From an uncultured Hyphomonas sp. (GTDB lineage Bacteria > Pseudomonadota > Alphaproteobacteria > Caulobacterales > Hyphomonadaceae): 64,000 bases of DNA. The stretch lies in the NCBI RefSeq assembly GCF_963678195.1, contig NZ_OY782759.1, forward strand, positions 1,550,001 to 1,614,000. Reading direction: 5' to 3'. Under the pieces are notes generated by a model. That model made no database searches and had not been told where the DNA came from. It was given only the letters and a program-made list of their open reading frames with translations. Every line of letters starts with the position of its first letter. Positions within the stretch are counted from its first letter, which is position 1. Of the stretch, positions 3,533 through 25,539 are shown in pieces. A program made the translations under genes and the position numbers.

Positions 3533-3709
3533 GTCGCCGCTGGACCTGAAGCGGACACTTGGTAATGTGCATGTAATTACCGCCACTTCTGTCTGAGGAG
3601 CCGGTGTGTTTTCGTATCGGAAATCTGCCCTACTTACCGCGGAGCCGCTCCCTCGAAGCTGAAGCGACAGCTGGGTCGTTTCTCCAGAAGCCTGTTTGCT
3701 CCCTCCCGC

Positions 3710-4934: not shown

Positions 4935-5078
4935 TTGCGTCCCCTTGTTTCTGTGCCGATCAGGCCGAGCTGTCGATCGAGCGTGCGTTCAAGCCGCTCA
5001 ACCACCCGCTGACGTTCCGACCTGGCAAGTATTGTGAAGTCCGGTTGAGCAGCGTTACCAGGATAAAGCCGAGGTGGA

Positions 5079-6194: not shown

Positions 6195-8372
6195 ATGATA
6201 CGTATTACCCGTACCCCCGCCGATGAATATGAGATGCCCGAAGGGGACGGCCCTTCGGCACGGTATGAGCGTTTGCGGCGTCTTCTGACGGGACGAGTTT
6301 CGGCTCCGACCATGTCGCTGTTTCCCGAACCCAAGGCGGTGGCCGATGGCGGTATAGACTGGATCAGCAATCTAGGGGGGCAGCCGGTTGCGCTGACCTC
6401 CCTTCCGGAAGAGCAGCAGCTCGCGGCCACAAGCATTCTGGACGAGCGCCTGCAAGGTCTGCGCGTTGCCGCCCAAGACCTTGAACAGACATCACCGGCA
6501 GACGCTGCATTTCTTCGTGAGGTTGCGTCCCGGCCGTCCGACAAGGATGTGTTTGTCCTCAATGGACAGCCCACGATTGTTGGTTGGGGGTTGAGACGGC
6601 CTGGGGAGGTAGACATCCCGCCCGCTGCAGCGGCAGCGACGGCAGCGGACATTGCACCGGAAGTGGAAGCCCGTCCGAAACGCTGGTGGCTTTGGGGCAT
6701 TCTGGGGGGATTGCTACTGATCGCGGCGCTCGTGGCGGCCTGGTGGCTTTTCCTGAGAGGGGATCCCTACGCGGACCTGCTGGCGAAGGTCGAGGTGGCG
6801 GATTGTGCAGAGCTGCAGGACATTCGCAGCCGGAAGGGGCTCTTCAAACTCGACGATGAGCGTTATGTGGTATTGCTCGTGGACGTGGACCGGCGGCTTG
6901 CCGATTGCGCCTATGAAAAGGTCAAGTCGCAGGTCGAGGCGGCAGAGAAAGACTGTGAAGCGTTGGAAGACCTGCGTGAAATCGACATCCTGATGAGCTC
7001 CCAGGAGGATCGGTACAAGGTCTTGCGGGAACGCGTGGATTCGCAATTACTCGATTGCACTTATGAGCGGGTGAAAAACACCGTCGAGACGGCGGAGTGC
7101 CCGGCATTGCGGCCGCTGCTCGCGAGTGAGCCCTACCTCGCAAAACCGCCGGAACAGCGCTTTATGGAACTGCGTGCGGCGGCTCTCACTCGGGGTGCCG
7201 ATTGTGAATATGAACGCATCTCCGCTGCCGTCGAGGAATATGAGGGGCAGTGCGAGCCGACACAGGAATTGCTCGACGGCGAGGCCTATCTGTTGTCGCC
7301 GCCTGAAGAACGCTACTCGGTATTGCGGGCTTCGGTGGACAATACATTGCTGGAGTGCCGTATCGCCGACTTGCGCGAAAAGCTCGAGGCTGCCGATTGC
7401 GAGGAGGTGCGGCAACTGTATGAAACAGAGCCCTTGCTGGCACTGGACGATCCCCGGATAGCCGAATTGCGGGAGATCGGCGACGAAAAGATCGCCGATT
7501 GTGAGTTCGGGGAAGTCGAAGACGCAGTCAACGAAGCGATGGGAGACTGCAAGGCGATGTCGAGCCTGCTGGCTGGAGAGCCGCGCCTGAACAATGCAGC
7601 CCCCCGCTTCAAGGCGCTGCGCAGCAAATTGAACAAGGACCTGATGGCCTGCAAGGCGCAGCAGGCAAAAGACGCGCTTGATCAGTGCGCGGGCGAGCGC
7701 CCCGAAGAACTGGCCCCTCAGCTGGTCGTGGTCATGGACCAGTCCGGCAGCATGGACACATCGATGGGCATTACCCAGGCCATGCAAGACCGGTGGAACC
7801 GGATGATCCAGGTGAACTCGCTTCTCGGCACGATTCAAGCTGCTGCAGAGAAGGAGCAGATTATCGCCTCGACCCCCTCGCGGATGACTGTCGCCAAGGA
7901 TGCCTTGCGCATGGTGGTGTCGACGCTTCCGTCGGACGTGCCGGTCGGTCTGGTGGAAGTCTCCGATTGCACGCGCGCGATCAATCACGGCTTTTTCAGA
8001 CCGTCACAGCGGGGATCCTTGCTGAGCATCATTAACCGCGCTTCGCCCAAGAACGGCACTCCGCTTGCGGATGGGGTCTCCCGGGCAGGCAACCTGATTA
8101 CGGATAAGAACCGGCCTGCCGTTATGGTCGTGGTGTCCGACGGCGATGAAAGCTGCGGAGGCAATGTCTGCGCGGTCGGTCAGAGCCTGGCCCGGAGCCA
8201 CCCCAAGCTGACGATCAACGTTGTCGATATCCTGGGAGTTGGCGCTGCGAACTGCCTGGCCGAGGCAACCGGTGGGAAAGTGTATCCGGCAAACAATGCC
8301 GCCGATGTGGCCTCAACGATGGAACGTGCAGCATCTGAGGCGCTAGGCCCGCAAAGGTGCCGCAAAAAGTGA
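6195..8372 (+). CDS. VWA-domain membrane protein with SrfA-like N-domain and six Cys-paired repeats
   Basis: The protein has 725 residues. Residues 1-135 resemble the N-terminal domain of the next protein (GDGPSARYERLRRLL, then GGIDW and a run ending VFVLNGQPTIVGWG). One membrane helix follows (about 164-187). Residues 201-495 are six tandem repeats of about 50 residues, each with two Cys (204/238, 254/288, 302/337, 353/388, 402/436, 452/486). A von Willebrand factor A domain begins near 508 with the MIDAS motif D-Q-S-G-S (515-519), a Thr in TPLADG and an Asp in VSDGDES. With the helix as anchor the repeats and VWA domain should be periplasmic, where the Cys could form disulfides. It is the first gene of the SrfABC run, so partner binding or scaffolding is likely. 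The exact role is unknown. Confidence 0.75.
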   Translation: MIRITRTPADEYEMPEGDGPSARYERLRRLLTGRVSAPTMSLFPEPKAVADGGIDWISNLGGQPVALTSLPEEQQLAATSILDERLQGLRVAAQDLEQTSPADAAFLREVASRPSDKDVFVLNGQPTIVGWGLRRPGEVDIPPAAAAATAADIAPEVEARPKRWWLWGILGGLLLIAALVAAWWLFLRGDPYADLLAKVEVADCAELQDIRSRKGLFKLDDERYVVLLVDVDRRLADCAYEKVKSQVEAAEKDCEALEDLREIDILMSSQEDRYKVLRERVDSQLLDCTYERVKNTVETAECPALRPLLASEPYLAKPPEQRFMELRAAALTRGADCEYERISAAVEEYEGQCEPTQELLDGEAYLLSPPEERYSVLRASVDNTLLECRIADLREKLEAADCEEVRQLYETEPLLALDDPRIAELREIGDEKIADCEFGEVEDAVNEAMGDCKAMSSLLAGEPRLNNAAPRFKALRSKLNKDLMACKAQQAKDALDQCAGERPEELAPQLVVVMDQSGSMDTSMGITQAMQDRWNRMIQVNSLLGTIQAAAEKEQIIASTPSRMTVAKDALRMVVSTLPSDVPVGLVEVSDCTRAINHGFFRPSQRGSLLSIINRASPKNGTPLADGVSRAGNLITDKNRPAVMVVVSDGDESCGGNVCAVGQSLARSHPKLTINVVDILGVGAANCLAEATGGKVYPANNAADVASTMERAASEALGPQRCRKK
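6795..7680 (+). repeat. Six protein-coding tandem repeats of about 150 bases
   Basis: The repeats encode residues 201-495 of the VWA protein. Each unit begins near a Cys in a context like (A/E)DC-x-x-L, has a central E-R-Y/R-F-x-x-L-R, and ends D-C-x-Y-E-R-(V/I). First-Cys positions 204, 254, 302, 353, 402 and 452 give a period of about 50 residues. The units have diverged at the DNA level, so this is an old protein repeat rather than a recent tandem duplication. I do not recognise the repeat family. Confidence 0.7.
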
Positions 8373-8490
8373 CACGGAAGGGACCTCATACGTCGAAAGT
8401 GGCACGTTTGACCGACGGGCGGCTTGCCAGGAGGTGCTGGCGCCCCGCAGATTGCCATGGGCCCCTTGAGAACATTGGAGCGAACCGATC

Positions 8491-9939
8491 ATGACCATTT
8501 TGCCTATCCGGTCCGGCAAGCTGAAAGACTATCGGCCGCTCGGAGAAGAGGGGAACGCTGTCTACCGGTCTGCCGGCCAGCTCCTGGAGGCCATCAGGCT
8601 TCAGCTCGGACCGGAGAAGGCGGCGTATTTTGCGAGGCCCAAGGTCAATGAAGCGGGCGATGGCATTGACTGGTACCCGCATAATGAAGGCCTGGTCGTT
8701 CCCTGGTCGAGCGCCTCACCGGCGGAGCGGTCTGCCGCCAAGGCTAGCCTCCAGGACATGCAGGCCGAAATTGGACAGCTCAGCGAGCGGATGCTTGCCT
8801 CGCCGGATGAAGAGCGCCGGACTTTCGGCAAACTGCTGACGAAGATCACCGTCTTTCCCGGTGATGACTATGTCTATCTGGTCGATGGCAAGCCGGTTCT
8901 CAGCTTCTGGGGGTTTTCGGATCCGAACCAGACTATCGTCGACCCGCTGGACCAGTTGACGGTCGCGCCTGCGGTTCCGACCGGCCCGGCGCCGGGTGCG
9001 GCGGCCGGAACTGCGGCGGTTGTCCTGGAAAAGAGACGCGGGTGGCCTTGGTGGATGTGGCTTCTTCTCCTGCTGCTCCTGCTGGCGCTGCTGTTCATGT
9101 TCCGCACTTGCGCGACCGGAAAGAATGCCGACCTGCCGATGATTCCGGGCAACCAGACACCGCTGGAGGAGTTGGCTCCGGACGATGAAGGTATTCGGTA
9201 TGATGACGAACAGGGGCGGCGCTATATCGACCGCAACGGCGTCCGTTATTACGATGTCGATGGAGACGGCATTCCCGACCGGGAAGGCGCCGTGGATCCA
9301 TCGGATGGCCTCCCCCCGGAAGCCGGTGAAGAAGGTCTGTTGCCGGAAGAGCCGCTGACGGATGAGGGCCTGCCGCCTGACGAAATGGCTCCGGACGTAC
9401 CGCCTGAAATGCCGCCAGAAATGACGGAAGAGCCTCCGATGGACCAGCCTGCGCCGGAGGACATGCTGCCCGACGAAATGGACCCGGACGCTGAACAGAC
9501 GCCGGAACCGCCAATGCTGGAACCGCCGGCGGATAACCCTCCGCAGGATCCGCAAACGCCCCCCGAGCCGATGTCTATTCCTCCGGAAGCCCTGCAGTCT
9601 GGCGACTCGAGTTTCCTGGATGGCAACTGGCAGGCAACGACCGGTCTCATGGACGAGCGCGGTCGTCCCGTCGACGTGCAGTATGAGTTTGACGACAAAG
9701 GCCAGGGTCAGGTCAAAATGACCAATGCGGATGGCCAGACCTGTGTAGGGGGCGTTTCGTCCAGCATGTCGTCCGGAGGATTGACGCTCAAGGGCAATGG
9801 GGCGGTGAAGTGTCCGGACGGCAGCGAATTCAGCCCGGCAGATGTGAACTGCAAAGTCGGCAAAAATGGCCAGGCGGATTGTTCCGGCTCTTACGAGTCC
9901 GGTGAAACCTTCGGTGTTCAGATGGAGCGTGACAATTGA
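8491..9939 (+). CDS. srfA: SrfA-like bitopic membrane protein
   Basis: The protein has 482 residues. Residues 1-140 match what I know of the SrfA N-terminal domain: LGEEGNAVYRSAGQL, NEAGDGIDWY, VPWSSASPAERSAA, then a beta stretch ending DGKPVLSFWGF. One membrane helix follows at about 187-205. The periplasmic part has a calcium-loop-like DVDGDGIPD (255-263), a Pro/Glu/Asp/Met-rich linker (about 270-370) and a C-terminal domain with four Cys that resembles a small beta-sandwich. SrfA is named from Salmonella SsrB-regulated genes and its biochemical role is not established. It sits directly upstream of srfB and srfC, the usual context. Confidence 0.7.
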   Translation: MTILPIRSGKLKDYRPLGEEGNAVYRSAGQLLEAIRLQLGPEKAAYFARPKVNEAGDGIDWYPHNEGLVVPWSSASPAERSAAKASLQDMQAEIGQLSERMLASPDEERRTFGKLLTKITVFPGDDYVYLVDGKPVLSFWGFSDPNQTIVDPLDQLTVAPAVPTGPAPGAAAGTAAVVLEKRRGWPWWMWLLLLLLLLALLFMFRTCATGKNADLPMIPGNQTPLEELAPDDEGIRYDDEQGRRYIDRNGVRYYDVDGDGIPDREGAVDPSDGLPPEAGEEGLLPEEPLTDEGLPPDEMAPDVPPEMPPEMTEEPPMDQPAPEDMLPDEMDPDAEQTPEPPMLEPPADNPPQDPQTPPEPMSIPPEALQSGDSSFLDGNWQATTGLMDERGRPVDVQYEFDDKGQGQVKMTNADGQTCVGGVSSSMSSGGLTLKGNGAVKCPDGSEFSPADVNCKVGKNGQADCSGSYESGETFGVQMERDN

Positions 9940-9973
9940 TCTTGGAAGCTACAATCCATGGCGGGGCGGTTGA

Positions 9974-12946
9974 ATGACGTCCTCGTTGAAAGACCTCGTC
10001 AATTTCGAGGAGAGCATCGGGCTGATCCTCGATAGCGGGATCCAGTTTATCGATCTCGGATTGTCCATTGATGCGAAGAAAGCCCCGGTCGGGGAGTTTA
10101 TCAAACGTGATAGCAAGCGCTCGCTTGCCCGGCTCGAATATGACGAGCGTCGCGATATCTATTTCTATCCCACCCGGCCCGGACAGGCGGCGAAGTCAGA
10201 ATTCTCCGTGCCGCTCGATGAATCCCTGAAGCTGCTGGAAGGGACATGGCTTCCGATCCCGTACCTTCGCTTCAGCCCGCCGGACAAGTTTGCGGAAGGC
10301 CCGTTCAACTGGGCGAGGGCGCGGATTATCGAGGTCGACCCGAAAGAAGACCCCAAACACACCCACAGGGTTGTGATCGCCTTCGACACCCGGGCGCATG
10401 AAAGCGACTCCCGTGCGACCTATTTGGCACCGACTATGGATGATGTGCGCACCGGCGCGCCTTTCCGCCTCGCGCACCGGGCAGACCAGATCGCTTGGTT
10501 CACCGAAGCGCCGTGGATCGATGCCTGGATCAAGGAAATCTTTCTGGAGAGGGCTCAGGAGAGGCTGCGGATTTCGCCGGAGGATCTGGAAGAGCAGATT
10601 GGCGACATGCAGCATCAGGCCCATTACCTGAACTTCCTGCATGTGCTCGGGCATTATGTGAAGCCGCCTGAGACGAAGATCGATTCCAATCTGCAGTCTG
10701 ACAGGTTTGCGCCAATCCCGGTGGACTTCGTTCTAGATGTCGGCAATTCGAGGACCTGTGGCATTCTGATTGAGGAGCACCCCCAGGAATCGGACGGTCT
10801 TCGCCGGCGCTATGAGCTGGAGCTACGCGATCTGACCGTTCCGGAACGCACCTATGCGCGTCCTTTCGAAAGCCGTGTGGAGTTTGCACAGGCCAATTTC
10901 GGCAAGGACAATTTCTCGGTGGAGAGTGGCCGCCCGGATGCCTTCCAGTGGCCGACCATCGCCAGGGTCGGGCCCGAGGCCGCGCGTCTGGCGTCGCGGC
11001 GCCGGGGGACAGAAGGGGCCACCGGTCTTTCAAGTCCCAAGCGCTATCTGTGGGATGAAGAAGTTTTTGCCCCAGGCTGGCGGTTCAACAATGTGTCGGC
11101 GCGTTCGGAAATTGAGCCGCTCGCGACAGCTGCGCCGTTCACATACGCCATCAACGATATCGGCGAGGCGCTCTACAAGTTCCCGCCTGATGAGCGGATG
11201 CCGGTGTTTACGCCTTGCTATTCGCGCAGTTCACTGATGATGTTCATGCTCGCGGAGGTGATCGCTCAGGCCATCGTGCAGATCAACAGCTGCGCTCAGC
11301 GGATGAAGCTCAGCCACGCGAACAAGCCAAGGCACATGCGCAGCATCGTGCTGACCGTACCGCCTTCGATGCCCAAACCTGAGCGGGAACTGTTCCGGGA
11401 GCGCGTCCGGCAGGCGGTCGTCCTGGTCTGGAAGTCCCTCGGCTGGCATGAGCGCGACGCAGATCCGGATGAGGACGGGGACAAGCCGTGGCCGCTTTTC
11501 CCGGAAGTGCTCGTCGAATGGGACGAGGCATCCTGCGGTCAGGTCGTGTACATGTTCAGTGAGATCCAGAACAATTTCTCCGGGCACCCGGAAGAATTCT
11601 TCCGCACCATGAAGCGCCCGGACAGCGCAACGGACGACACGAAGACCCTGACGGTCGCCTCCATCGATATTGGTGGCGGGACCACGGATCTTGTGGTGTG
11701 TGATTATTCCCTGGATGACGGGCAAGGGGCGAACGTCTTCATTTCGCCCAATCAGCGGTTCCGGGACGGGTTCAAGAGCGCAGGTGATGAGATCCTGCTC
11801 GACGTTGTCAGGGACGTTCTGGTGCCGGCAATTGCCAGTTCGCTGAAGGCGCATGGGGTCGGCAATACCGATGCGCTGATTTCGCGGCTCATCGGATCTG
11901 AAGCGCTTGATGCCCGCGAGTCGACCTTGCGCCAGCAATTGACCTTGCAGGTGCTCTATCCCATCGGCCTGCGCCTGCTGAAAGAGTACGAAGCGTATGA
12001 CCCGATCAGCCGGACGGGGCAGATCGTCATCGATATCAAGGATGTGCTTCAAGGCGAAAACGAGCCGTCTCACGAGGTGAAGGAGCACATCGCCTCGATC
12101 GTCGGCCGCGAAATGCCGCATGGCTCTCCACGCTATGACATCATGTCCCTGTCGATTCCTCTGAACCTGCGCCAGCTTCACGAGAATTTCCTGCGCGGCA
12201 AGTTTGACATCGCTAAAACAATCCGCTCACTGAGTGAAATTGTGTATCTGTACAATTGCGATGTTTTGTTGCTGACCGGTCGGCCCTCGCGGCTTCCGGG
12301 CGTGCAGGCGCTGTTGAAGGTTCTGTTGCCGCTGCCGCCGGAGCGCATTGTTTCCATGCAGGACTATCCTGTCGGGTCCTGGTATCCCTTCCACCGGCAA
12401 GGAAGGATCGACGATCCGAAAACGACAGCTGCGGTAGGTGCAGTGTTGTGCGTCCTTGGACGCGGACGCCTGCCGAACTTCTTTTTCCGCTCCGACGCGT
12501 TCAAACCTTATTCAACCGTCAAGTTCATCGGCCTGATGGATGACAATGGAATGATCAAGGATGCCGATGTCTATTACAGGGATGTCGATCTTGACGATCC
12601 GGACTATGAGCTGCCGGATTCCACATTCGAGATGCGGGGCCTGATGAGGATCGGCTTCCGTCAACTGGATGCAGAGCGCTGGGCAGGGGCTCCGCTCTAC
12701 ACATTGTCTTTCGCCGATGACCGCGTTCGCGACAGGATCTACACCGAGGGCGATGTCCTTCAGGTGCGGCTTAAGAGTGAAAGCCGGCGCAGCGCAGGCG
12801 GCGGGAATGACCGTCTGGCCATTGCGGGCGTTTCCTCGGGCCGCGGTTCCGTCGGCGCACGGGCGATTAAACTGCAACTGAACACCCTCGCCAATGTCGG
12901 TATTGGCGAGACAAACTACTGGCTTGATAGCGGAAGCGTGGTCTGA
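9974..12946 (+). CDS. srfB: SrfB-family actin/Hsp70-fold ATPase
   Basis: The protein has 990 residues, close to the usual SrfB length. After a region of about 250 residues it shows the ATP-binding signature of the actin/Hsp70/FtsA superfamily: phosphate-1 motif FVLDVGNSRTCGIL (252-265), phosphate-2 motif ASIDIGGGTTDLVV (about 566-579) and an adenosine motif LLTGRPSRLPG (near 765). No signal peptide or membrane helix is visible, so it should be cytoplasmic, near the membrane proteins encoded beside it. The stop overlaps the srfC start (ATGTCTGATATG context), so the two are probably translated together. In known srfABC operons SrfB is a putative virulence-associated factor. Its molecular action is unproven. 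Confidence 0.85.
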   Translation: MTSSLKDLVNFEESIGLILDSGIQFIDLGLSIDAKKAPVGEFIKRDSKRSLARLEYDERRDIYFYPTRPGQAAKSEFSVPLDESLKLLEGTWLPIPYLRFSPPDKFAEGPFNWARARIIEVDPKEDPKHTHRVVIAFDTRAHESDSRATYLAPTMDDVRTGAPFRLAHRADQIAWFTEAPWIDAWIKEIFLERAQERLRISPEDLEEQIGDMQHQAHYLNFLHVLGHYVKPPETKIDSNLQSDRFAPIPVDFVLDVGNSRTCGILIEEHPQESDGLRRRYELELRDLTVPERTYARPFESRVEFAQANFGKDNFSVESGRPDAFQWPTIARVGPEAARLASRRRGTEGATGLSSPKRYLWDEEVFAPGWRFNNVSARSEIEPLATAAPFTYAINDIGEALYKFPPDERMPVFTPCYSRSSLMMFMLAEVIAQAIVQINSCAQRMKLSHANKPRHMRSIVLTVPPSMPKPERELFRERVRQAVVLVWKSLGWHERDADPDEDGDKPWPLFPEVLVEWDEASCGQVVYMFSEIQNNFSGHPEEFFRTMKRPDSATDDTKTLTVASIDIGGGTTDLVVCDYSLDDGQGANVFISPNQRFRDGFKSAGDEILLDVVRDVLVPAIASSLKAHGVGNTDALISRLIGSEALDARESTLRQQLTLQVLYPIGLRLLKEYEAYDPISRTGQIVIDIKDVLQGENEPSHEVKEHIASIVGREMPHGSPRYDIMSLSIPLNLRQLHENFLRGKFDIAKTIRSLSEIVYLYNCDVLLLTGRPSRLPGVQALLKVLLPLPPERIVSMQDYPVGSWYPFHRQGRIDDPKTTAAVGAVLCVLGRGRLPNFFFRSDAFKPYSTVKFIGLMDDNGMIKDADVYYRDVDLDDPDYELPDSTFEMRGLMRIGFRQLDAERWAGAPLYTLSFADDRVRDRIYTEGDVLQVRLKSESRRSAGGGNDRLAIAGVSSGRGSVGARAIKLQLNTLANVGIGETNYWLDSGSVV

Positions 12947-15657
12947 TGTCTGATATGACTCCCGAAGCACTTGAGCAGAGCTGGAACCGCCTGCACGAAT
13001 GTGCTGGCAAAGGCATTGAGTGGGTTGAGAAGGTCCGGGAAACGGCGCCGAGCGTTGCGAGTGAGGCCGAAGGGCTGGTCGAGAAGTTAAGGCGTGTCCG
13101 CAACCTGTCGCGAAAGCTGGGCCAGGTGTCTGGGCGGCCCATGTCGGTCGGCTTTTTCGGCCTGTCCCAAGCGGGCAAGTCCTATCTGATCTCGGCGCTG
13201 TCGGCCGGTGAGAATGGCCGGCTCGAGACCGTTTATGACGGTCAGCGGCTCGACTTCATCGATCACGTGAACCCTCCGGGAAAAGGGAAAGAGGCGACGG
13301 GGCTCGTCACGCGCTTCACACGGCGGTCCAAACCAGGCCCCGATGGCTATCCGATCGAGATGAAGCTATTTTCGGAAGTCGATCTGGTTAAAATCCTCGG
13401 CAACTCCTTCCTCAACGATTTCGACAAGGAAAAGGTTGAGCACAATCTGGATCCGGGGCGGCTTCACGACTTGCTGAACACACTGGAAAGCCGTGCCCAG
13501 CACGGGCCGACAGACAGCCTGACCGAGGACGATATCATCGACCTCTGGGATTATTTCCAGCTTCGATACACTAAGACGTCCGACGCGCTGAAGGGGGAAT
13601 ACTGGCCCCGCGCTGTCCGGCTCGCGCCGCGCCTGTCCCTTGCAGACCGGGCGGAATTGTATGCCGTGCTGTGGGGCGAGGTAGAGGCAATGACCGACGC
13701 CTTCAACAAATGCCGCTCGGCGCTGGAGTCGCTCGCCTACGCGCCGACGATCTATGCGCCGCTGTCAGCGATTGTCACGAAGACCCCTGATGGGAAATTC
13801 TCTCAGGCTGACAGTATCATGAATGTTGACATTCTGGGCCGGCTCGGCGGTGCAGAAGATGACCTCATTGAAGTGTTGCCCTTTGTAGACGACCGGACTC
13901 TGGCGCCAGCCCGTGTGTCACGGGCCCTGCTTGCGGCGCTAACGGTGGAACTGGTTTTCCCGCTGGTCGAGGAGCCGGTTACTCGCGGAATCGAAGAGGT
14001 CGATCTGCTCGACTTTCCCGGTTACCGCGGTCGCCTGAGCGTCGAAAAGAAAGAAGATGCGTCCGGATTGAACAGTACGGGCGACGGTCCGTTGATCGCC
14101 GATCTCCTGTTGCGCGGCAAGGTTGCCTATCTGTTCGAGCGTTACACCGAGCATCAGGAAATGAACGTCCTGATCGTCTGTACGCCTTCCAACAAGCAAT
14201 CGGACGTGACCGAAGTGGGGCCAGTCCTCTCTGACTGGATCGATCGAACGCAAGGCGCCACACCGGAAATCCGAGCGCAGCGCTCGCCGGGGCTCGTCTG
14301 GGCAATCACCATGTTTGATATTCGTGTGCAGAGCTCCCTGGGAGACTCGGAAGACCTGCTTAGAATCGCATGGGGCGATGGCGGCCTGATGAAGATGACG
14401 CTGCTGGAGCGCTTTGGCCGATATTCCTGGCTCAACAACTGGTCGAAAGGTCAGCCGTTTAACAACATCTTCCTAGTGCGCAAGCCGCGCCTGCCTGGCA
14501 CATTCATGCGTATCGAGGGCGGCGACGAGAAGGGGGTGCAGGGTGAGTATTCAGCCCAATTTGATCTCATGAAGAAAACCTTCGTTGCAGATCCCACCGT
14601 CTCGAAACATTTCTCGAATGCCGCCGAAGCCTGGGACGCGATGGCGAAACTGAACGATGGCGGGATGAGCCGACTGGCGCATTACCTCTGCGACGTCACG
14701 CCATTGAAGTTCAAAGTTCAGCGTCTGGAAGAACAGCTCAACGCAACGATTGCGGATACGCTCGAACACAGTCTGGGGAGATACTTCTTCAGCGAGGGCG
14801 CCGGGGAAACGGGCAAGAAGGAAAAAATTGCAGCGCAGGTAAATGAAAACCTGCGCGAACGCGCGCCCATCGTGGGTGAGCTGATTTCTAGGCTGCATCC
14901 CCGCCCGGACCAGTTGCGCACTGTCTATCTTCGTGCTGAGGACGGCGACGATGACAAGGGGCCTGCGAAAGGCGAGGAAGAAGAAGTCAGCTCCGGCGCG
15001 CTGAAGGCGGATGGCCTGATTTCATTCGATTTCGAGGAAGCGCCGATCGTTGATATTGAGGACGACAGCGCCGACCACGTCCAATTCATCCCGGCAGAAC
15101 GGAGGTTTGCGCGTGCGGCGACCCGTTACTGGATCAAACAATTGCGGTCATTGCCGGATGAGGAGTCGCTTCTGGACTTCATGGCGCTGTCGAAAGACGT
15201 TGTGAGTTCGTTGGTGGACGAGGTTATTACCGGCGCGTTGCGGCTCAAGATCGAAGACAAGGTGTTCGAAGCGACACGACATTCCGAACTGGAAGCCGGA
15301 TTGCGTTCGGACCAGCTGGTTCAGCGCCAGGTCCTTGCGGCGCAGCGCGTTTTTGCGGACATGCTAGCGCAGCTGGGTCAGAACGACGTGGCCCTGGCAG
15401 ACCGGGCGGAAAGCGTTGCTGCAGGCCCGGGACGGGTTGGAAAGCGCCGGTTGTTCGAGCCGCCTCCCGAGATCACAAATGGAACCCTGCCGAAGCTTGG
15501 GCAAAAGCCGGTTAACTTCTCGGCCATGTATCTTGTTGACTGGATGGCGGCTTTTAAGGCGCTATGCGTTGGAAACGCAGGTCACAGCGCCGGGCGGGAC
15601 ATCACACCAGAGCAGAATGCTGAGCTGGGTGAGATTTTGGCGCCACTGAGGGGATAG
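12946..15657 (+). CDS. srfC: SrfC-family dynamin-like P-loop protein
   Basis: The protein has 903 residues. A helical start is followed by VGFFGLSQAGKSYLISAL, a Walker A/G1 loop (GLSQAGKS, 72-79). Near residue 350 VDLLDFPGYRGR supplies the DxxG of a G3 motif. The second half is long and helical, rich in charged residues. The order (helical start, GTPase-like head, long helical body) fits the SrfC family and its resemblance to dynamin-type GTPases. It has no membrane helix. Coupling to srfB by overlap suggests that the two act as a pair, perhaps on the inner face of the membrane carrying the VWA, SrfA and Sel1-tail proteins. Confidence 0.85.
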   Translation: MSDMTPEALEQSWNRLHECAGKGIEWVEKVRETAPSVASEAEGLVEKLRRVRNLSRKLGQVSGRPMSVGFFGLSQAGKSYLISALSAGENGRLETVYDGQRLDFIDHVNPPGKGKEATGLVTRFTRRSKPGPDGYPIEMKLFSEVDLVKILGNSFLNDFDKEKVEHNLDPGRLHDLLNTLESRAQHGPTDSLTEDDIIDLWDYFQLRYTKTSDALKGEYWPRAVRLAPRLSLADRAELYAVLWGEVEAMTDAFNKCRSALESLAYAPTIYAPLSAIVTKTPDGKFSQADSIMNVDILGRLGGAEDDLIEVLPFVDDRTLAPARVSRALLAALTVELVFPLVEEPVTRGIEEVDLLDFPGYRGRLSVEKKEDASGLNSTGDGPLIADLLLRGKVAYLFERYTEHQEMNVLIVCTPSNKQSDVTEVGPVLSDWIDRTQGATPEIRAQRSPGLVWAITMFDIRVQSSLGDSEDLLRIAWGDGGLMKMTLLERFGRYSWLNNWSKGQPFNNIFLVRKPRLPGTFMRIEGGDEKGVQGEYSAQFDLMKKTFVADPTVSKHFSNAAEAWDAMAKLNDGGMSRLAHYLCDVTPLKFKVQRLEEQLNATIADTLEHSLGRYFFSEGAGETGKKEKIAAQVNENLRERAPIVGELISRLHPRPDQLRTVYLRAEDGDDDKGPAKGEEEEVSSGALKADGLISFDFEEAPIVDIEDDSADHVQFIPAERRFARAATRYWIKQLRSLPDEESLLDFMALSKDVVSSLVDEVITGALRLKIEDKVFEATRHSELEAGLRSDQLVQRQVLAAQRVFADMLAQLGQNDVALADRAESVAAGPGRVGKRRLFEPPPEITNGTLPKLGQKPVNFSAMYLVDWMAAFKALCVGNAGHSAGRDITPEQNAELGEILAPLRG

Positions 15658-15661
15658 ATTT

Positions 15662-16831: not shown

Positions 16832-16874
16832 AGTCCCCTTCTGCGGACCTAAGTGAGAGTAAGGAGCAAAGTTG

Positions 16875-18866
16875 ATGTCTAGAAGGCGCATTGCGAAGAT
16901 GGCGCAGGGGGTGCTCTCTCTGATGGTATTTTTCTGCCTCTCGCTGGCATTGCCTGCCAGCGCCAAAGAACCCCTGTTGATGGATGGCAAGAAAACCATC
17001 TACCAGCGTGTGCTGACGCGTCCCGGAGCTGAGATCGCGGCTCAGCCAGGCGCCAGCGGCGGGACCGAGGCCGATGCATTTTCCAGATACTATGTCTACG
17101 AACGAAAGACGGTTGCGGGCAAGGAATGGATTGAGGTGGGACCTGACTCAAAAGGCAAGATCGACGGCTGGATCCAGGCTGAACAATCAGTGCCTTGGAA
17201 GCAGCAGATTGCGCTGTCGATTACCAATCCATCGGGCCGTAGCCCGCTCCTGTTTTTCAAGGACCGCAAAACGGTCGAGGATATCTATGGAGACTTCAGT
17301 CCGTCTTCGAAGTTCGATGAGGTCCGGTCCTCGCTAGAAAAGAACGGTTTCGATCAACGTGTCATGACGCGGGAGCCGGATACGGCCGTCGACATGAAGA
17401 AGAAATTCTATCTTCTTCCGATACTCGACGCTGAAGAGATATATTCCGGCGCTGGGCAGACTGTTCGGATTTTGAATGTCGCCTCCGTCGCCAAGCCGCC
17501 AGATTCCGGGGCGTCAAAAGGCGCGTCGGCAAAGGCTGGACAGCTCAAGAATTTCAATGCGGCAATCGTGTTCGTGATCGACTCCACGATTTCAATGGGC
17601 CCCTATATCGATCGCACTCGGGAGGCGGTGCGGGAAATCTACGATACGATCGACAATGAGGGGCTGTCGGACCGGGTGCGGTTCGGTCTCTATGCGTATC
17701 GCTCCAGCACCAAGGCCGTTCCCGAACTCGGATACGTGTCGAAACTCTTTGCGGATCCGTCCAAGACAAAGGATGGCGATGATTTTCTTGCCAAAGTCAA
17801 TGCGCTTAAGCCTGCAACCGTCTCGAGTAAGCTGTATGATGAAGATGCATACGCTGGACTGATGGATGCAATTCAGAATGTAAATTGGACCGAATTCGGT
17901 GGCCGATACATCATCCACATTACCGACGCCGGCGCGATCGACAGCCAGAGCCAGTATTCGGATACAAAACTCGGCGCCAAGGAAGTGCGTCTGGAGGCAA
18001 AGCACCGCGGCATTGCACTTTACACGCTTCACCTCAAAACCCCGAGCGGAGCGAAGAACCACTCCAGTGCGGAAGCTCAGTATGAGGAATTGACAGAAAA
18101 CGATATCGTCTCAAAGCCTCTTTATTATGGCGTTGACGCGGGTGATGTTGAAGAGTTTGGCGAAATCGTCGAGACACTGGCGAGCACGGTCGCCGAACAG
18201 GTCGACGGAGCGTACCGCGGCAAAACCGTTGCAGGAAGCGCCCGGACAGCTGATCCTGATTTCGGTGCGGACGAGGATGCCAGCGATCAGGCCAAGCAGG
18301 CCGCAGAGGATGCGGCTAAAATGGGGCACGCCATGATGCTCGCTTATCTTGGCAGCAAGAACGGCGAGGGGGCTCCAGATGTGCTTGAAGCCTGGATTGG
18401 TGATCGTGATCCAAAGGACATGAACCGTGCCATGACGGAGGTGCACGTTCTGCTCACCAAAAGCCAGCTAAGCGATATGCAACAGATTCTGAAGAAGGTC
18501 TTGGATGCTCAAAATGCCGGCATCATCCAGTCATCCCAGATGTTCGAACAACTTCGTTCGGCTGCAGTGGCGCTCGGTCGGGACCCGAGCCAGATCAATC
18601 AGTCGAAATCGACCAAGTTGATCGAACTCGGCCTGTTTGGAGAATATCTCGACGGTCTCCCATACAAGTCAGACCTGCTGAATATGTCCGAGGACGAATG
18701 GAGCAGCATGAGCGCAAACATGCAGAATTCGTTCCTTGTCAGCCTAAATCGCAAGCTCCGTATGTATGAATACTACAACCGCGATGCGGACCGCTGGGTG
18801 CGCCTTGTCAAGGGCGGGGATGCCAGCGACGATGTCTATCCCGTTCCGTTGGACGCGTTGCCCTAG
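16875..18866 (+). CDS. Secreted VWA protein resembling the periplasmic half of T6SS kinase PpkA
   Basis: The ATG at 16875 follows AAGGAG (16861-16866). A signal peptide covers about residues 1-31 (ending PASA|KE). The mature chain begins with KTIYQRVLTRPGAEI and an SH3-like stretch, then a VWA domain from about 230 with the MIDAS variant D-S-T-I-S and an Asp in ITDAGA, and ends in a helical region. I know this combination from the C-terminal half of PpkA, the serine/threonine kinase of the type VI secretion threonine-phosphorylation pathway. Here there is no kinase domain and no membrane helix beyond the signal. The downstream genes are TagT-, TagS- and TagR-like in the PpkA-module order, which supports the comparison. 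Confidence 0.7.
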   Translation: MSRRRIAKMAQGVLSLMVFFCLSLALPASAKEPLLMDGKKTIYQRVLTRPGAEIAAQPGASGGTEADAFSRYYVYERKTVAGKEWIEVGPDSKGKIDGWIQAEQSVPWKQQIALSITNPSGRSPLLFFKDRKTVEDIYGDFSPSSKFDEVRSSLEKNGFDQRVMTREPDTAVDMKKKFYLLPILDAEEIYSGAGQTVRILNVASVAKPPDSGASKGASAKAGQLKNFNAAIVFVIDSTISMGPYIDRTREAVREIYDTIDNEGLSDRVRFGLYAYRSSTKAVPELGYVSKLFADPSKTKDGDDFLAKVNALKPATVSSKLYDEDAYAGLMDAIQNVNWTEFGGRYIIHITDAGAIDSQSQYSDTKLGAKEVRLEAKHRGIALYTLHLKTPSGAKNHSSAEAQYEELTENDIVSKPLYYGVDAGDVEEFGEIVETLASTVAEQVDGAYRGKTVAGSARTADPDFGADEDASDQAKQAAEDAAKMGHAMMLAYLGSKNGEGAPDVLEAWIGDRDPKDMNRAMTEVHVLLTKSQLSDMQQILKKVLDAQNAGIIQSSQMFEQLRSAAVALGRDPSQINQSKSTKLIELGLFGEYLDGLPYKSDLLNMSEDEWSSMSANMQNSFLVSLNRKLRMYEYYNRDADRWVRLVKGGDASDDVYPVPLDALP

Positions 18867-19612
18867 TGATGCAGTCGGTCGAGCCACTGCTGCATGTGTC
18901 CGGCCTGGTGGCGGAACGCCGCCTGTCCAATACTACGCCGTTCCGGGTCAGCCTGGATAGTCTGATCGTGGCGCCCGGCGAAGTGGTTGCGGTCACGGGA
19001 GAGTCCGGAGCGGGTAAGAGTACGCTGCTCGAGGCGCTAGCATTGATCCTCAGGCCGAAGTCCCTGGATGCGTTCACCCTGCAGACAGAGGCCGGTGAAT
19101 ATGACCTGGCCCGCATGTGGCAGCGACGGCAGCGGGAGGGACTCGCCGGCATTCGCGCCCGCTATTGGGGGATTGTGCTGCAGACAGGGGGGCTGTTGCC
19201 ATTCCTGTCTCTCCGAGAAAACATTGTGCTTTCACGCCGGTTGCTTGGTCTTTCCGGTCTCGGGCATCGCTACGAAGAGATCATGGATGCATTCGAACTG
19301 GCTGGGTTCGAAAATCACCGGCCAGCGCAATTGTCGATCGGCCAGCGCCAGCGCGCCTCGATCGCCCGCGCGATGCTGCATGATCCTGTACTGGTTCTTG
19401 CAGATGAGCCGACTTCCGCGCTCGATCCGGATCTATCCCTGGCAACCTGGCGCCTGATGATCTCGATTGCGGAAGCAGCAGGCATCGCATTTTTGGTCGT
19501 CACGCATGAGTGGCGTGTCGCCAACGATCTTGGGCTGCGTCAGTACCGTGCCCGGCCCATGGAAGGCGGAAAGGTTCGGGGAAGCGAATTCCGTGAGGAT
19601 TGCGTTGCCTAA
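18866..19612 (+). CDS. ABC transporter ATP-binding protein, TagT/LolD-like
   Basis: The start (GTG 18866 or ATG 18869) overlaps the preceding stop. The 248-residue protein has a Walker A motif GESGAGKST, a Q-loop near VLQTGGLLPF, the signature LSIGQRQR and Walker B VLADEPTSALD. This is the MacB/LolD/FtsE type of ATPase that works with FtsX-fold permeases in transenvelope mechanotransmission rather than bulk transport. The permease gene overlaps its 3' end. In Pseudomonas the TagT/TagS pair sits next to PpkA and TagR in this order, so I read this as the TagT-equivalent. Confidence 0.8.
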   Translation: MMQSVEPLLHVSGLVAERRLSNTTPFRVSLDSLIVAPGEVVAVTGESGAGKSTLLEALALILRPKSLDAFTLQTEAGEYDLARMWQRRQREGLAGIRARYWGIVLQTGGLLPFLSLRENIVLSRRLLGLSGLGHRYEEIMDAFELAGFENHRPAQLSIGQRQRASIARAMLHDPVLVLADEPTSALDPDLSLATWRLMISIAEAAGIAFLVVTHEWRVANDLGLRQYRARPMEGGKVRGSEFREDCVA

Positions 19613-20849
19613 GCCGCTTGCTCCCCCGCGTGTTGGATTGCGCCGCCAAGCAGCGATCGCCATGGGACTGGCCGTGCGCGATCTCGTTCAGGGGTTCGGC
19701 ATGACTTTGTGCCTCACCGCGGCGATATCGGCCATCATTGCGCCGCTACTGCTGCTGATCGGTCTGCGAACCGGAGTCGTCGAAACTATGCGCAATCGCA
19801 TTTTGTCCGACCCCTCGGCTCTGGAAGTGTCGATCCGGGGAAATGGTGCATTGGATCAGGCATGGTTCGATGCCTTGAACGAGCGTGAGGAGCTAGCCTT
19901 TGCCATACCGCTTACCCGATCGCTCAACACGGAAATCGACCTCGTCAAAACCCCCCGGGAATTCGTCAGGTTTGTGGAGCTGATTCCGACGGCCGCTGGC
20001 GATCCGGTGCTGACACGATTTGGCCTTCAGCCACCGGAGCAGCCAGATCAGATCGTCCTGTCCAAGCCTGCTGCAGATGCCCTGAACGTTCAAATTGGCG
20101 ACATTGTAAACGGCAAGGTTTTGCGAAAGCGGGAAGGAGAATTCGAACCTGCTGAAACGCCACTGACTGTTATCGCGATCGCGCCTCAGGAAATGACCAA
20201 CAAGAAGCAGGCGTTCGTCCGGCTCGTGCTTCTGGAAAACGTGGAACGGTATCACGATGCGGAGACAGCTCCGATGTTCGGGGATGAGGGGGAGCTGGCC
20301 GCAAAAGGCAAATATGCCCGTGCACGGATTTACGCCCGCTCCCTGGAGCAGGTGCAGCCTCTAGCTGAATTCGTGCAGTCCACTAACGTTGAATCCGAAT
20401 ATGCCGCTGGTGATATCCAGACGCTTCAGTCAATTGAGCGGAATTCCCGGCGTGTGTTGCAGGTCGTTATCGGTACGACGCTTGTAGGCGGGATCGCAGC
20501 GCTCATGGGCTTTGTCATAACCAAGGTGGAGCGCCGCCGCATTGAACTGGCCGTCCTTCGAATGCTGGGGTTTTCGAGTCTCGGAGTTGCCAGTTTTCCG
20601 GTCGTACAGGCGGTGGCAATCAGCCTTGGCGGCCTGGCATTGGCTTTCGGTCTGTATTTTGTTGGAAACAATCTTTTTAACCTGTCCCTCGGTTTCAGTT
20701 TGGGCGAGGGGGAATCTGTGAGCGTCCTTCCGGGCAGAATCGTTCTCCAGGCATTTTTATGTGTCTTGGGCGCGAGCATTCTGGCCGCGGGACTAGGAGG
20801 GATATATGCGAGCCGAATTGATCCGTCGGAGCCGCTTCGCGATCACTAG
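19593..20849 (+). CDS. FtsX/MacB-type permease, TagS-like
   Basis: I place the start at GTG 19593, which overlaps the ATPase gene by 20 bases; ATG 19662 is a possible shorter start. The protein has about 418 residues, with one membrane helix near the N-terminus (LCLTAAISAIIAPLLLLIGL), a large periplasmic domain of about 240 residues, then three helices near the end, the first followed by ITKVERRRIELAVLRMLGFS. This FtsX coupling pattern (ERR-x-E-x-A-x-LR-x-LG) marks the superfamily. With the ATPase it should form a MacB-type machine that passes a mechanical signal across the inner membrane. It is TagS-equivalent by gene order. Confidence 0.75.
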   Translation: MRIALPKPLAPPRVGLRRQAAIAMGLAVRDLVQGFGMTLCLTAAISAIIAPLLLLIGLRTGVVETMRNRILSDPSALEVSIRGNGALDQAWFDALNEREELAFAIPLTRSLNTEIDLVKTPREFVRFVELIPTAAGDPVLTRFGLQPPEQPDQIVLSKPAADALNVQIGDIVNGKVLRKREGEFEPAETPLTVIAIAPQEMTNKKQAFVRLVLLENVERYHDAETAPMFGDEGELAAKGKYARARIYARSLEQVQPLAEFVQSTNVESEYAAGDIQTLQSIERNSRRVLQVVIGTTLVGGIAALMGFVITKVERRRIELAVLRMLGFSSLGVASFPVVQAVAISLGGLALAFGLYFVGNNLFNLSLGFSLGEGESVSVLPGRIVLQAFLCVLGASILAAGLGGIYASRIDPSEPLRDH

Positions 20850-22398
20850 CCTTTTTCTGGCGGGTGTCGTTCCGAATGTGGCGGTGGCAGACCCGTGGCC
20901 GCCTGTGCTGGTCAATCCTCAACCGCTGGACGGGGATTTTGTCCTGCCCTTGCCGTGCGACGGAGAGATGGTGTTCCGCAAGGTTCGACTACCCGTGTCA
21001 GGCGTGCTCGCAGATCACGCATTTCAGCAGGGCGGTTCTGACGAGGATTGGGACTATTCTGAAAACCCGATAGAAACATATCTCTCTGGCGGGTTCGAGG
21101 ACAAGGATGGCCAGTACTACTACATCGCGAAATATGAGGTGAACCAGCTTCAGTACGACGCGGTCATGAGCGAAGATTGCGCCACGCCGACCCCGATGCA
21201 CCGTTTGCCCAAAACACAGATCAGCTGGTTCGATGCCATCGCATTTTCCGACAAGTTGAGCACTTGGCTGCTGACGAGCGCGGCTGACAAGCTGCCACAA
21301 TCGGCCGGAGCAAAGGCCTTTGTCCGACTGCCGACGGAAGCCGAATGGGAATATGCCGCGCGTGGCGGTATGAAGGTGTCTGCTACTGAGTTCATCGACA
21401 GAATGTTTCCCACGAAGACGAGCCTGAACGATTATGTCTGGTATTCAGGTTCGTCATCGGCAAACGGCAAATTGCAGATGATGGGCCTGAAATCACCCAA
21501 TCCGCTAGGGCTGTTCGACATAGTGGGTAACGCCGACGAGATGACGATGGATCTGTATCACCTCAATAAAGGCAGCCGAATGCATGGTTTGAGTGGTGGG
21601 TATATTATCCGGGGAGGAAACTTCCGGACCCCACGCGAGCAAATACGCACCGCCCAGCGGGAAGAGGCACCATTTTACATTGATACCGGCCCGCGCACAT
21701 CCCCGGCGACGGGATTCCGGCCGGTTCTCAGCACCATCGCGATCGCCTCCCTGAAGAGGCTGGATGAAATCAAGAAGGAGTGGAAGACTATCGGCAGCGA
21801 TGTCACTGGACTTGGCGAGGTGCAACCACAGCCGATAGCTGTTAGAAAAGTTGCCAAAGGCAAATCTGAAAACCCAATTGAAGAACTTGAGCTGATCGCC
21901 GACGCCATACAGGACAACGGCACCAAGCAACGGCTGGCTGATGTCAGGAACGTGCTGAAGTCCAGCATGATCGCGCGTGATGAGCAGCGGGATCGCGCTG
22001 TGAAGTCATCCCTGCGTCTCGGAGCCTTCCTTTGCGCGAACCTCTATAATGGAGGGAACACCGTTGAGCTGCTTCAGAATTCGTATGATGCGCGTTGCGC
22101 GACAAACGATCCGGCCCAGAGGTGCGACAAGCGGGCTGAACAGCTCGATGCCGAGAAACAGGCGCTGCGTGGAAACCTCGAATATTATTCAGATACAATT
22201 GTGCGCTCGGCGATGGATTTTTCTCCAGAGCTGATCGACCAGCAAAGCAAGATCCTGCGTCGGGAAATGGAGGCCAGAGATCTCGGCTCGATCGCCGACT
22301 GGGCCGACATATACGGAGATCAGGTAAAGTTTTTCTCTGAAGACGGGAAAATCAAACGACGGGACTGGCTCTCCGATTGTATGGCTGGTACAGATTAG
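20806..22398 (+). CDS. Periplasmic FGE-sulfatase-fold protein, TagR-like
   Basis: The start overlaps the permease gene by 44 bases. A signal peptide covers about residues 1-28 (ending AVA|DP). Residues 95-310 form a formylglycine-generating-enzyme (SUMF1/FGE-sulfatase) domain: VRLPTEAEWEYAARGG, NPLGLFDIVGNADEMTMD, YIIRGGNFRTPREQIRTAQR and GFRPVL. The active-site Cys pair of true FGE enzymes is not seen, as in non-catalytic members such as TagR. A helical tail of about 200 residues follows. In the T6SS threonine-phosphorylation pathway TagR promotes PpkA activation from the periplasm. Here the likely partner is the secreted VWA protein encoded upstream. Confidence 0.75.
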   Translation: MRAELIRRSRFAITSLFLAGVVPNVAVADPWPPVLVNPQPLDGDFVLPLPCDGEMVFRKVRLPVSGVLADHAFQQGGSDEDWDYSENPIETYLSGGFEDKDGQYYYIAKYEVNQLQYDAVMSEDCATPTPMHRLPKTQISWFDAIAFSDKLSTWLLTSAADKLPQSAGAKAFVRLPTEAEWEYAARGGMKVSATEFIDRMFPTKTSLNDYVWYSGSSSANGKLQMMGLKSPNPLGLFDIVGNADEMTMDLYHLNKGSRMHGLSGGYIIRGGNFRTPREQIRTAQREEAPFYIDTGPRTSPATGFRPVLSTIAIASLKRLDEIKKEWKTIGSDVTGLGEVQPQPIAVRKVAKGKSENPIEELELIADAIQDNGTKQRLADVRNVLKSSMIARDEQRDRAVKSSLRLGAFLCANLYNGGNTVELLQNSYDARCATNDPAQRCDKRAEQLDAEKQALRGNLEYYSDTIVRSAMDFSPELIDQQSKILRREMEARDLGSIADWADIYGDQVKFFSEDGKIKRRDWLSDCMAGTD

Positions 22399-22445
22399 AT
22401 ATCGGGGAAACAATTTCTTCCAAATTGGTGAGGAGACACTCAATC

Positions 22446-23147
22446 ATGTTGATCTGGAAACGCATGGGTGCTTATGCACTCGCAGGCGTCATGCTGTCGG
22501 CTTGTGCCACTACTTCCACGAATCCGGCCGCAGATCCGCGTCTTCAGACTAGGGAGGCGAAATTTTTTTCTCAATCGAGCCTTCAGGCCTGTGCTATGAC
22601 CGCAGGGGCTGGCGCAGCCGCCTATGCGGTGACGCAGATGCTCCGCAACCAGGATATTGAAGACGAAGGACTGATTGTTTCTGCCGTCGCTGGCTGTGCC
22701 GTTGGCGCCGGGGTCAACTACTATCTTGATGTGAAGCGGACCCAGAACCAGAATGAGCAGTCGCGCATCAGTGCAGAGATCGACGATGTGAAGCAGGACA
22801 ACCAGAAACTGGCCTCCTACATCGCGACAACCAAGCAGGTCGTCGCGGAAGACAAGCAGGAGATCGAAGCCATCACTGCGGGCCTCGAGGAAAGCACAAT
22901 GACCAAGGAAGAGGCGGAGGCCCGGCTGGTCGGAATTGATGCGAACCGGCAGGAACTTGAAAAGACGCTCGGTAACCTGAAAGAACGTGCGGAACGCTGG
23001 AACGCGGTTGCCGACCAGGAAAAGGCGGCCGGTGCAAACACAGCGGCTCTGGATGCGGAAATAAAGACGCTGGAGACTCAGGTCGCTAGCCTCCAGAGTG
23101 AACTCGACGACCTCAATAGCTATCGTTCTGTCGTCAAAACGGCCTGA
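22446..23147 (+). CDS. Coiled-coil lipoprotein, possible TagQ counterpart
   Basis: I chose ATG 22446 because GAGGAG lies upstream and the protein then begins with a lipoprotein signal ending V-M-L-S-A-C (Cys19). The 233-residue protein has a short Gly/Ala-rich hydrophobic stretch (about 45-90, including MTAGAGAAAYAV and a Gly-zipper-like segment) and then a long coiled coil to the end. With no Asp directly after the Cys it should be sorted to the outer membrane. TagQ is an outer membrane lipoprotein in the same relative position in Pseudomonas, but I cannot claim sequence similarity. It is probably a structural envelope part of the module. Confidence 0.65.
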   Translation: MLIWKRMGAYALAGVMLSACATTSTNPAADPRLQTREAKFFSQSSLQACAMTAGAGAAAYAVTQMLRNQDIEDEGLIVSAVAGCAVGAGVNYYLDVKRTQNQNEQSRISAEIDDVKQDNQKLASYIATTKQVVAEDKQEIEAITAGLEESTMTKEEAEARLVGIDANRQELEKTLGNLKERAERWNAVADQEKAAGANTAALDAEIKTLETQVASLQSELDDLNSYRSVVKTA

Positions 23148-23174
23148 TGAGCACGAAGGGGGGACGCAAGCACA

Positions 23175-23690
23175 ATGCGACCGGTTATTTTTATTGGAGC
23201 AATGCTGTCAGCCACTGTGTTGATGGTGTCGGCTTGCGCCACCAACCCGGCTGACTGCAATGCTCAGGTGGATCAGGGATTCCTGACAAAAATGGGATGC
23301 GTGAATGCCAGCGGATATCGCATGCAGACTGAACGGATGCGGTTGGAGTTGGAGGATGCCAAGGAGGTCAATGCCAACCTGAAAGACGTCTACGCTGCCC
23401 TCGAGAAAGAGCGCAACGAAGTGCGTGACGAACTGGCTGCCGACCGCGCAGAGTATCAGGATCTCACCAAGGCGATGAACACGCTTCTGGCTACGTTGAA
23501 GAAAAACAGCGCAAACAATGTGAAGCTTCAGCTGGAGATTGACAAGCTCAACAGCTCGATGAATCAGATCAACCAAACGGGCGGCGGCGACAGCGTGCTG
23601 GTGAAGCGCCAACAGCTCGATTCTCTGCAGCGCGAATTGCAGATGTTGGAAACGGAACTGGGTATCTCTGACGCGCAGGTAATCAGCTAG
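23175..23690 (+). CDS. Small coiled-coil lipoprotein
   Basis: The protein has 171 residues. The leader ends L-M-V-S-A-C (Cys21), a good lipobox. Four Cys occur in the first 45 residues (21, 28, 42 and one at the acylation site region), and residues 50-165 are heptad-rich with almost no Gly or Pro before the end. It follows the previous lipoprotein after 27 bases and shares its design, so the two may pair through their coiled coils. It closes the plus-strand locus. No family was recognised. Confidence 0.65.
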   Translation: MRPVIFIGAMLSATVLMVSACATNPADCNAQVDQGFLTKMGCVNASGYRMQTERMRLELEDAKEVNANLKDVYAALEKERNEVRDELAADRAEYQDLTKAMNTLLATLKKNSANNVKLQLEIDKLNSSMNQINQTGGGDSVLVKRQQLDSLQRELQMLETELGISDAQVIS

Positions 23691-24034: not shown

Positions 24035-24059
24035 TGTCCGTCGTCAGGTATTTGAGACT

Positions 24060-25453: not shown

Positions 25454-25539
25454 CTTCGCTCCCTTGGCGGGCTACGATGTGCCAGAAATCCTCCTTAAGC
25501 AATTTGACCGGTCTGTCTCACAGTCGCTGACGGGGAACA

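Follow-up and report, generated by a model that had tools for sequence, protein, structure and literature searches.

A kinase-free variant of the TagQRST envelope sensor within a recurring, probably mobile 11-gene srfABC system

In Pseudomonas aeruginosa, the TagQRST-PpkA pathway senses physical and chemical damage to the outer membrane, and damage inflicted by force or polymyxin nonapeptide triggers the H1 type VI secretion system (H1-T6SS), with dimerization of PpkA as the proposed switch, according to the account in PMC11881912, which presents the way TagQRST reads outer-membrane damage as unresolved; furthermore, TagQ recruits TagR (PMC6657622). The SrfA, SrfB and SrfC proteins of Xenorhabdus are reported to bind one another (PMC6950479). 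The two systems have already been described together: in host-associated Deltaproteobacteria, srfABC occurs with tagQ and ppkA, and often with tagR, tagS and tagT, and the passages on these loci in PMC3608642 (2013) mention T6SS machinery in only one strain, discuss PpkA as a kinase and regard the system as linked to a host. Here we analyze a window of 64,000 nucleotides (positions 1,550,001 to 1,614,000 of contig NZ_OY782759.1, assembly GCF_963678195.1) from an uncultured Hyphomonas sp., whose genome of 3.67 Mb forms one contig. Overall, the 11 plus-strand genes at positions 6195-23690 of this window contain a TagQRST sensor variant that lacks the kinase, within a recurring, probably mobile 11-gene system that also includes SrfABC.

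The plus-strand run with its overlaps, which an initial reading of the nucleotide sequence had proposed (hereinafter, the original prediction), was confirmed by analysis of the frames and by family scans. All genes are intact frames spaced by small gaps or overlaps, as follows (TM, transmembrane segment):

6195..8372, plus strand: vwa1, single-pass membrane protein with an N-terminal domain shared with SrfA, a stalk of six Cys-paired units and a C-terminal VWA domain
8491..9939, plus strand: srfA, single-pass membrane protein (NF040486, 318 bits; TM 191-209)
9974..12946, plus strand: srfB, predicted ATPase of the Hsp70 fold, extended N-terminally by a further domain (1-247)
12946..15657, plus strand: srfC, P-loop protein (PF10139, 1017 bits)
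15662..16831, plus strand: sel1, single-pass membrane protein with a weak Sel1-like tail (TM 178-196)
16872..18866, plus strand: vwa2, PpkA periplasmic half lacking the kinase and the kinase-side TM, with a signal-peptide-like start
18866..19612, plus strand: abc, TagT-like ABC ATPase (on the basis of ABC_tran and TagT homology)
19593..20849, plus strand: ftsX, TagS-like permease (FtsX family match; start codon uncertain)
20806..22398, plus strand: fge, TagR-like periplasmic FGE-fold protein (PF03781)
22446..23147, plus strand: lp1, TagQ-like lipoprotein with a glycine zipper, a coiled coil and a lipobox
23175..23690, plus strand: lp2, second lipoprotein, a remote relative of lp1 (hhalign probability 97.3)

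The relationship of vwa2 to PpkA is the key to this arrangement. Residues 30-664 of vwa2 align with residues 414-1032 of PpkA at 37% identity (E 1e-139). Across the PpkAs of six reference T6SS loci, which come from six of 398 sampled genomes, all of family f44, and were chosen by an NCBIfam TagQ match above cut-off, the match extends from PpkA residue 377-414 to the last residue (37-38% identity, E 4e-134 to 1e-139). The VWA-family matches of vwa2 fall below the Pfam cut-offs, and its identity rests on the PpkA homology. The single predicted TM of the six PpkAs lies within residues 322-364 and is preceded by the kinase motifs in the three proteins checked; vwa2 begins past this point, with a signal-peptide-like segment in place of the TM. 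An HRDxK-type kinase motif, present in those three PpkAs, was found in none of 88 vwa2 ORFs (open reading frames), and Pkinase (PF00069), the kinase family searched for, is without a match in the complete host genome. It is in this sense that we refer to the system as kinase-free. Thus, as judged by these alignments, vwa2 is PpkA without its kinase and TM; the original prediction had listed it as a secreted VWA protein and had missed this identity.

The absence of a kinase and of a T6SS, originally noted for the window, extends genome-wide for the families searched, namely PF00069 together with TssK (PF05936) and the VipB sheath (PF05943), neither of which has a match in the host; PppA, Fha and other T6SS families were not part of the genome-wide search. 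With no TssK or VipB match in the host genome, a complete T6SS lying just outside the window is excluded.

The other genes of the sensor half resemble TagT, TagS, TagR and TagQ. The abc product scores 119-152 bits against the six TagT proteins and 100, 90, 84 and 81 bits against LolD, YbbA, FtsE and MacB of E. coli, respectively (tblastn versus blastp, hence a rough comparison only). In a maximum-likelihood tree, 26 cluster ATPases, the six TagT and one stand-alone protein are split at 99/100 from six outgroup rows of LolD, FtsE, MacB and YbbA types, four of them of E. coli. The permease shows 33-36% identity to the six TagS (E 2e-32 to 6e-56), compared to 33 bits against E. coli MacB (tblastn) and no match to E. 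coli LolC, LolE, FtsX or YbbP at E 0.01. Similarly, fge aligns with the six TagR at 28-29% identity over 516-542 columns (E 3e-51 to 5e-56), well past its FGE domain (Pfam stretch 94-305), compared to 18 bits with the PvdO model and 39 bits with GldK. In enzymes of the FGE/PvdO/EgtB type, the catalytic cysteine follows a GFR motif; the residue after GFR is proline in the window protein and valine in four TagR, and 49 of 78 family rows have no GFR match. The lp1 lipoprotein matches a TagQ profile over 173 columns (hhalign probability 98.7, E 2e-16, in a run without a glycine-zipper control), and as a single sequence it scores 18 bits against NCBIfam TagQ, for which the cut-off is 300. This model is a poor genome marker, with 241 of the 398 genomes matching at E 0.001 and six above cut-off.

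The ATPase tree, the only tree built for these genes, together with the TagS and TagR scores excludes the view that abc, ftsX and fge are closer to generic MacB and PvdO families than to TagTSR. The proposed TagTSR relationship holds, the ATPase forming a clade with TagT and the permease and fge matching TagS and TagR far better than MacB or PvdO, and on this comparison of sequences the Tag link of the sensor half is real. What proved wrong is the claim that the gene order is mirrored: the six f44 loci run ppkA-tagT-tagS-tagR(-tagQ) in the direction of transcription, identically to the window.

In the other half of the cluster, SrfA, SrfB (PF07520, 1358 bits) and SrfC are adjacent and score above the family cut-offs. 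Upstream of them, vwa1 combines a VWA_2 domain (E 2e-10) with a SrfA_fam N-domain (E 3.5e-6), aligns with the SrfA family in hhalign (probability 100, E 9e-44) and has a TM at 169-187. In its residues 204-486 (window 6804-7652), a unit of about 50 residues with a Cys pair spaced by 34-35 residues is repeated six times in tandem. Judging from this pattern, the repeats are likely to form a disulphide-clamped periplasmic stalk; the window vwa1 is the longest among 67 compared. The Sel1 match of sel1 is below cut-off (E 0.085). A single TM is predicted in sel1 in 80/80 cases, in srfA in 66/78 and in vwa1 in 60/67.

SrfB has no hydrophobic N-terminal segment. Residues 248-970 of its predicted fold match the nucleotide-binding region of DnaK, at 13-21% identity in the rows shown, and longer, looser fold alignments also cover part of the Hsp70 substrate-binding region. 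The predicted protein combines the Hsp70 fold with invariant phosphate motifs, and the label given in the original prediction to this ATPase is better replaced, on the predicted fold, by Hsp70-like. A sequence-only search of the PDB returned no match for either SrfB or vwa2. SrfC has the P-loop GFFGLSQAGKS and, judging from the conservation in 30 rows, an invariant LDFPGYR motif. When SrfC was aligned with RdcA for a dynamin-type GTPase and stalk, hhalign yielded 4% identity over 31 columns at the P-loop, and a PDB profile search gave nothing significant, the best matches being an SMC protein (E 0.4) and GBP5 (E 0.85). By these comparisons, the dynamin-like nature given to SrfC in the original prediction is a possible assignment only.

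The association of the two halves recurs widely. A scan of genome contigs detected 312 vwa2 relatives, and the locus counts refer to the best 80 of these, which come from alpha-, beta- and gammaproteobacteria. By tblastn, these loci contain sel1 (80), srfC (79), abc (78), srfA, srfB and ftsX (75 each), vwa1 and fge (74 each), lp2 (65), lp1 (60) and a kinase (1); several misses are due to contig ends, the vwa1 count is inflated by matches to the N-domain shared with SrfA (e.g., L107 and L108), and the abc count includes doubtful matches, such as a minus-strand, unrelated-looking gene in L110. Moreover, sel1 is directly upstream of vwa2 in 80/80 loci, and with portions of the gene set adjoining vwa2 in all of them, the recurrence is beyond chance. 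The sole kinase match is a separate kinase-like ORF downstream of fge on a Rahnella contig (L152, 7899-8870). Another contig, labelled Stygiobacter (L106), is placed with Insolitispirillum by the ATPase tree (98/97) and may, on that basis, be a misbinned alphaproteobacterial contig.

Among the 398 genomes sampled across the phylum, 21 have SrfB above cut-off. At E 1e-5, the vwa2 profile likewise matches 21 genomes, six of which show a weak match confined to the VWA domain. The 15 genomes with strong vwa2/PpkA matches comprise eight with SrfB, six, all of one family, in which a T6SS PpkA is fused to its kinase, and one (G014) with a stand-alone form. The overlap of eight between these 15 and the 21 SrfB genomes has P 7e-8, in a count that leaves out the six weak VWA-only matches and a sub-cut-off SrfB match in G191; in one genome (G114), srfB and vwa2 lie on separate contigs, each near a contig end, and linkage there is presumed. 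G550 and G191 were rejected as srf carriers, their genes being remote SrfB-like or Hsp70-type ones without srfC. The stand-alone locus (L177, 8519-16344) consists of vwa2-abc-ftsX-fge followed by two lipoprotein-like ORFs, with no srf gene in the 20 kb fetched.

Homology, gene order and linkage, along with the lack of Pkinase, TssK and sheath matches in the host, were computed directly. From here we lean, by a modest degree, toward the reading that a TagQRST-type sensor of outer-membrane damage feeds the SrfABC machine via three single-pass proteins. The sensor would comprise the TagQ-like and lp2 lipoproteins of the outer membrane, the periplasmic TagR-like protein, the TagST-like ABC unit and free VWA2; the machine would comprise SrfB, with its predicted Hsp70-fold ATPase, the P-loop NTPase SrfC, SrfA, VWA1 and Sel1, the last three, all bitopic, being the putative signal carriers across the inner membrane. 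Damage to the outer membrane, or contact, would alter TagQ, TagR or VWA2, and VWA2 would then engage the periplasmic portions of VWA1, SrfA or Sel1. SrfB and SrfC would be recruited or switched at the affected spot of the inner membrane and might remodel proteins of the membrane or envelope there, or disaggregate them, while the TagST-like unit would use ATP to set or reset the sensor. No phosphorylation step of the PpkA type would be involved. The signalling steps themselves are our projection from the sequences. In line with this reading, the seven cluster genes compared have similarity matrices that agree with one another (r 0.74-0.95), an agreement to which shared species ancestry alone could also lead.

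Several observations weigh against this reading. Physical contact between the sensor and SrfABC is something that we infer. SrfABC can exist without the sensor, because 13 of the 21 SrfB genomes (12 of family f49, plus G139) have srfABC without a vwa2 match. L107 and L110 keep srfABC-sel1-vwa2 with no plus-strand TagTSRQ seen within the locus, which may be compared with two Deltaproteobacteria described as lacking TagR/S/T in the relevant passages of PMC3608642. The tagS and tagT mutants of P. aeruginosa show reduced but not lost TssK assembly (PMC6657622), and because TssK is still assembled, the ABC part appears to be accessory there. Finally, PMC6950479 presents SrfABC as a cytotoxin, that is, with another function.

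A wider proposition, which we offer tentatively and consider rather doubtful, is that TagQRST with the periplasmic half of PpkA is an old, portable damage sensor with the SrfABC Hsp70/NTPase machine as its common partner and the Pseudomonas T6SS as one kinase-fused offshoot. On this proposition, SrfABC would provide a phosphorylation-free, damage-triggered envelope response, perhaps repair or remodeling of the inner membrane at the wound. The vwa2 tree leaves the relative age of the T6SS and srf forms undecided: two changes are needed for the srf form, and the row for the stand-alone form is very long.

With regard to other explanations, it is unlikely that SrfABC is a secreted toxin complex for which the Tag-like part is the export or triggering device. 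ABC units of the TagST type are not known to possess a pore for folded proteins, which speaks against such export. Moreover, SrfA carries a TM, SrfB is predicted to be Hsp70-folded without a hydrophobic N-terminal segment, and neither TssK nor a sheath gene is present in the host, the T6SS being the secretion system searched for; all this has to be set against the reported harm of the Xenorhabdus SrfABC proteins to cultured cells (PMC6950479) and the suggestion in PMC3608642 that PpkA could trigger SrfC export.

A marginally less probable explanation is that two unrelated cassettes with separate tasks lie side by side by chance. It accords with the srfABC genes that have no vwa2 and with the stand-alone sensor cassette of G014; furthermore, the correlations of the similarity matrices are mostly higher within blocks than between blocks. 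Such chance juxtaposition is, however, hard to reconcile with srfC in 79 of 80 vwa2 loci across three proteobacterial classes and the invariable position of sel1 immediately upstream of vwa2.

Less probable again is that in most carriers the module continues to act for a T6SS encoded elsewhere in the genome, the window's host being a relic. A sheath gene is indeed present in 35 of 50 carrier genomes (representing 50 of the 80 loci) and in 3/8 carriers of an even sample, and these numbers also run counter to a general rule of no T6SS; the original statement of a system with no T6SS stands for the host, by the TssK and sheath search, and is weakened as a generality. However, 15/50 carriers and 5/8 of the even sample, the host included, have no sheath gene, no Fha or TssM was found by tblastn within the 80 loci, the 88 vwa2 ORFs show no kinase motif and the host genome no Pkinase match, and the window genes are intact frames. 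The carrier taxa might be rich in T6SS anyway, 35/50 being a raw proportion. Given sheath-free as well as sheath-bearing carriers, the cluster can do without a T6SS, yet is not tied to T6SS loss.

That the cluster is an anti-phage or mobile-element defence island, as its sporadic occurrence, its IS flanks and its plasmid-borne relatives might suggest, is highly improbable and was rejected on a PADLOC scan of 10 of the 11 proteins (all but lp2), which returned only generic ABC-ATPase and coiled-coil matches.

The cluster is flanked by two insertion sequence (IS) copies, which are 94-95% identical and in the same orientation, and by three ORFs on its left side:

2442..3534, minus strand: left IS3-like copy, internally deleted, with an rve domain
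3710-5813, minus strand: three ORFs (231, 170 and 244 aa) that separate the left IS copy from the cluster
24035..25541, minus strand: right IS3-like copy, with ORFs 24060-25085 and 25082-25453

SrfB is found in two of 299 genomes of the order, one being the host and the other (G550) having a remote protein with no srfC nearby; all 20 listed congeners are negative. Of 72,556 plasmid records, 125 (including 114 from Klebsiella) carry relatives of vwa2, all less than 60% identical to the window protein. The only plasmid neighborhood inspected, that of pENTE01 from Enterobacter sp. 638 (L182), contains every gene of the set and, some 2-3 kb downstream, an integrase; for this plasmid, a paper of 2010 noted an island of 23 kb that includes srfABC (PMC2869309). 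Because of the IS3-like flanks, the sparsity of SrfB in the order and the plasmid-borne relatives, the cluster was likely acquired by transfer.

No Pfam or NCBIfam family matches the three minus-strand ORFs located upstream of the cluster, and no evidence was found for the proposed export of neighboring basic proteins. Promoter-like sites number four, against 5.5 expected from shuffles, and terminator-like sites are somewhat in excess (24 versus 16.4 in shuffles, sd 4.1). Farther downstream, the subset of ORFs scanned at 35706-61240 encodes a TonB receptor, an MFS transporter, two beta-lactamase-fold proteins, CocE/NonD and MlrC-like hydrolases, a tryptophan-dehydrogenase-like protein and an indolepyruvate oxidoreductase, which suggests peptide or amino-acid breakdown.

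Since PMC3608642, the srfABC-tag combination as described there is known, so the novelty is narrower than originally claimed and lies in the absent kinase, the recurring gene set, the stand-alone form and the predicted Hsp70 fold of SrfB. Among the open-literature matches listed, a set that mostly leaves subscription papers outside, no paper describes a PpkA that lacks the kinase alongside SrfABC or assigns SrfB an Hsp70 fold. With the sensor set apart here from both kinase and T6SS, sensing could be studied alone. SrfABC, labelled a virulence factor in databases, gains a candidate role as a machine of the Hsp70 type that is linked to damage and acts within the cell that produces it.

Compared with known systems, the cluster shares srfABC, tagQ and a gene called ppkA, often with tagR/S/T, with the srf-tag loci of Deltaproteobacteria, for which the description in PMC3608642 is our sole source; the kinase is absent here. 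SrfB shares the predicted fold of its residues 248-970 with Hsp70 proteins (DnaK, YegD-like) and differs from them in its extra N-terminal domain of 247 residues. With the srfABC operon of Salmonella and Xenorhabdus and its short f49 form, the window shares the SrfA-SrfB-SrfC families and their order; it adds vwa1, sel1 and the sensor module, whereas 12 of 13 f49 SrfB genomes have no vwa2 match. Finally, the TagQRST-PpkA(-PppA-Fha) pathway of the Pseudomonas H1-T6SS agrees with the window in all five sensor genes and their order, including the full periplasmic half of PpkA. In contrast to that pathway, the window has no kinase domain and its host no Pkinase, TssK or sheath matches, and the sensor is linked instead to srfABC, sel1, vwa1 and a second lipoprotein.

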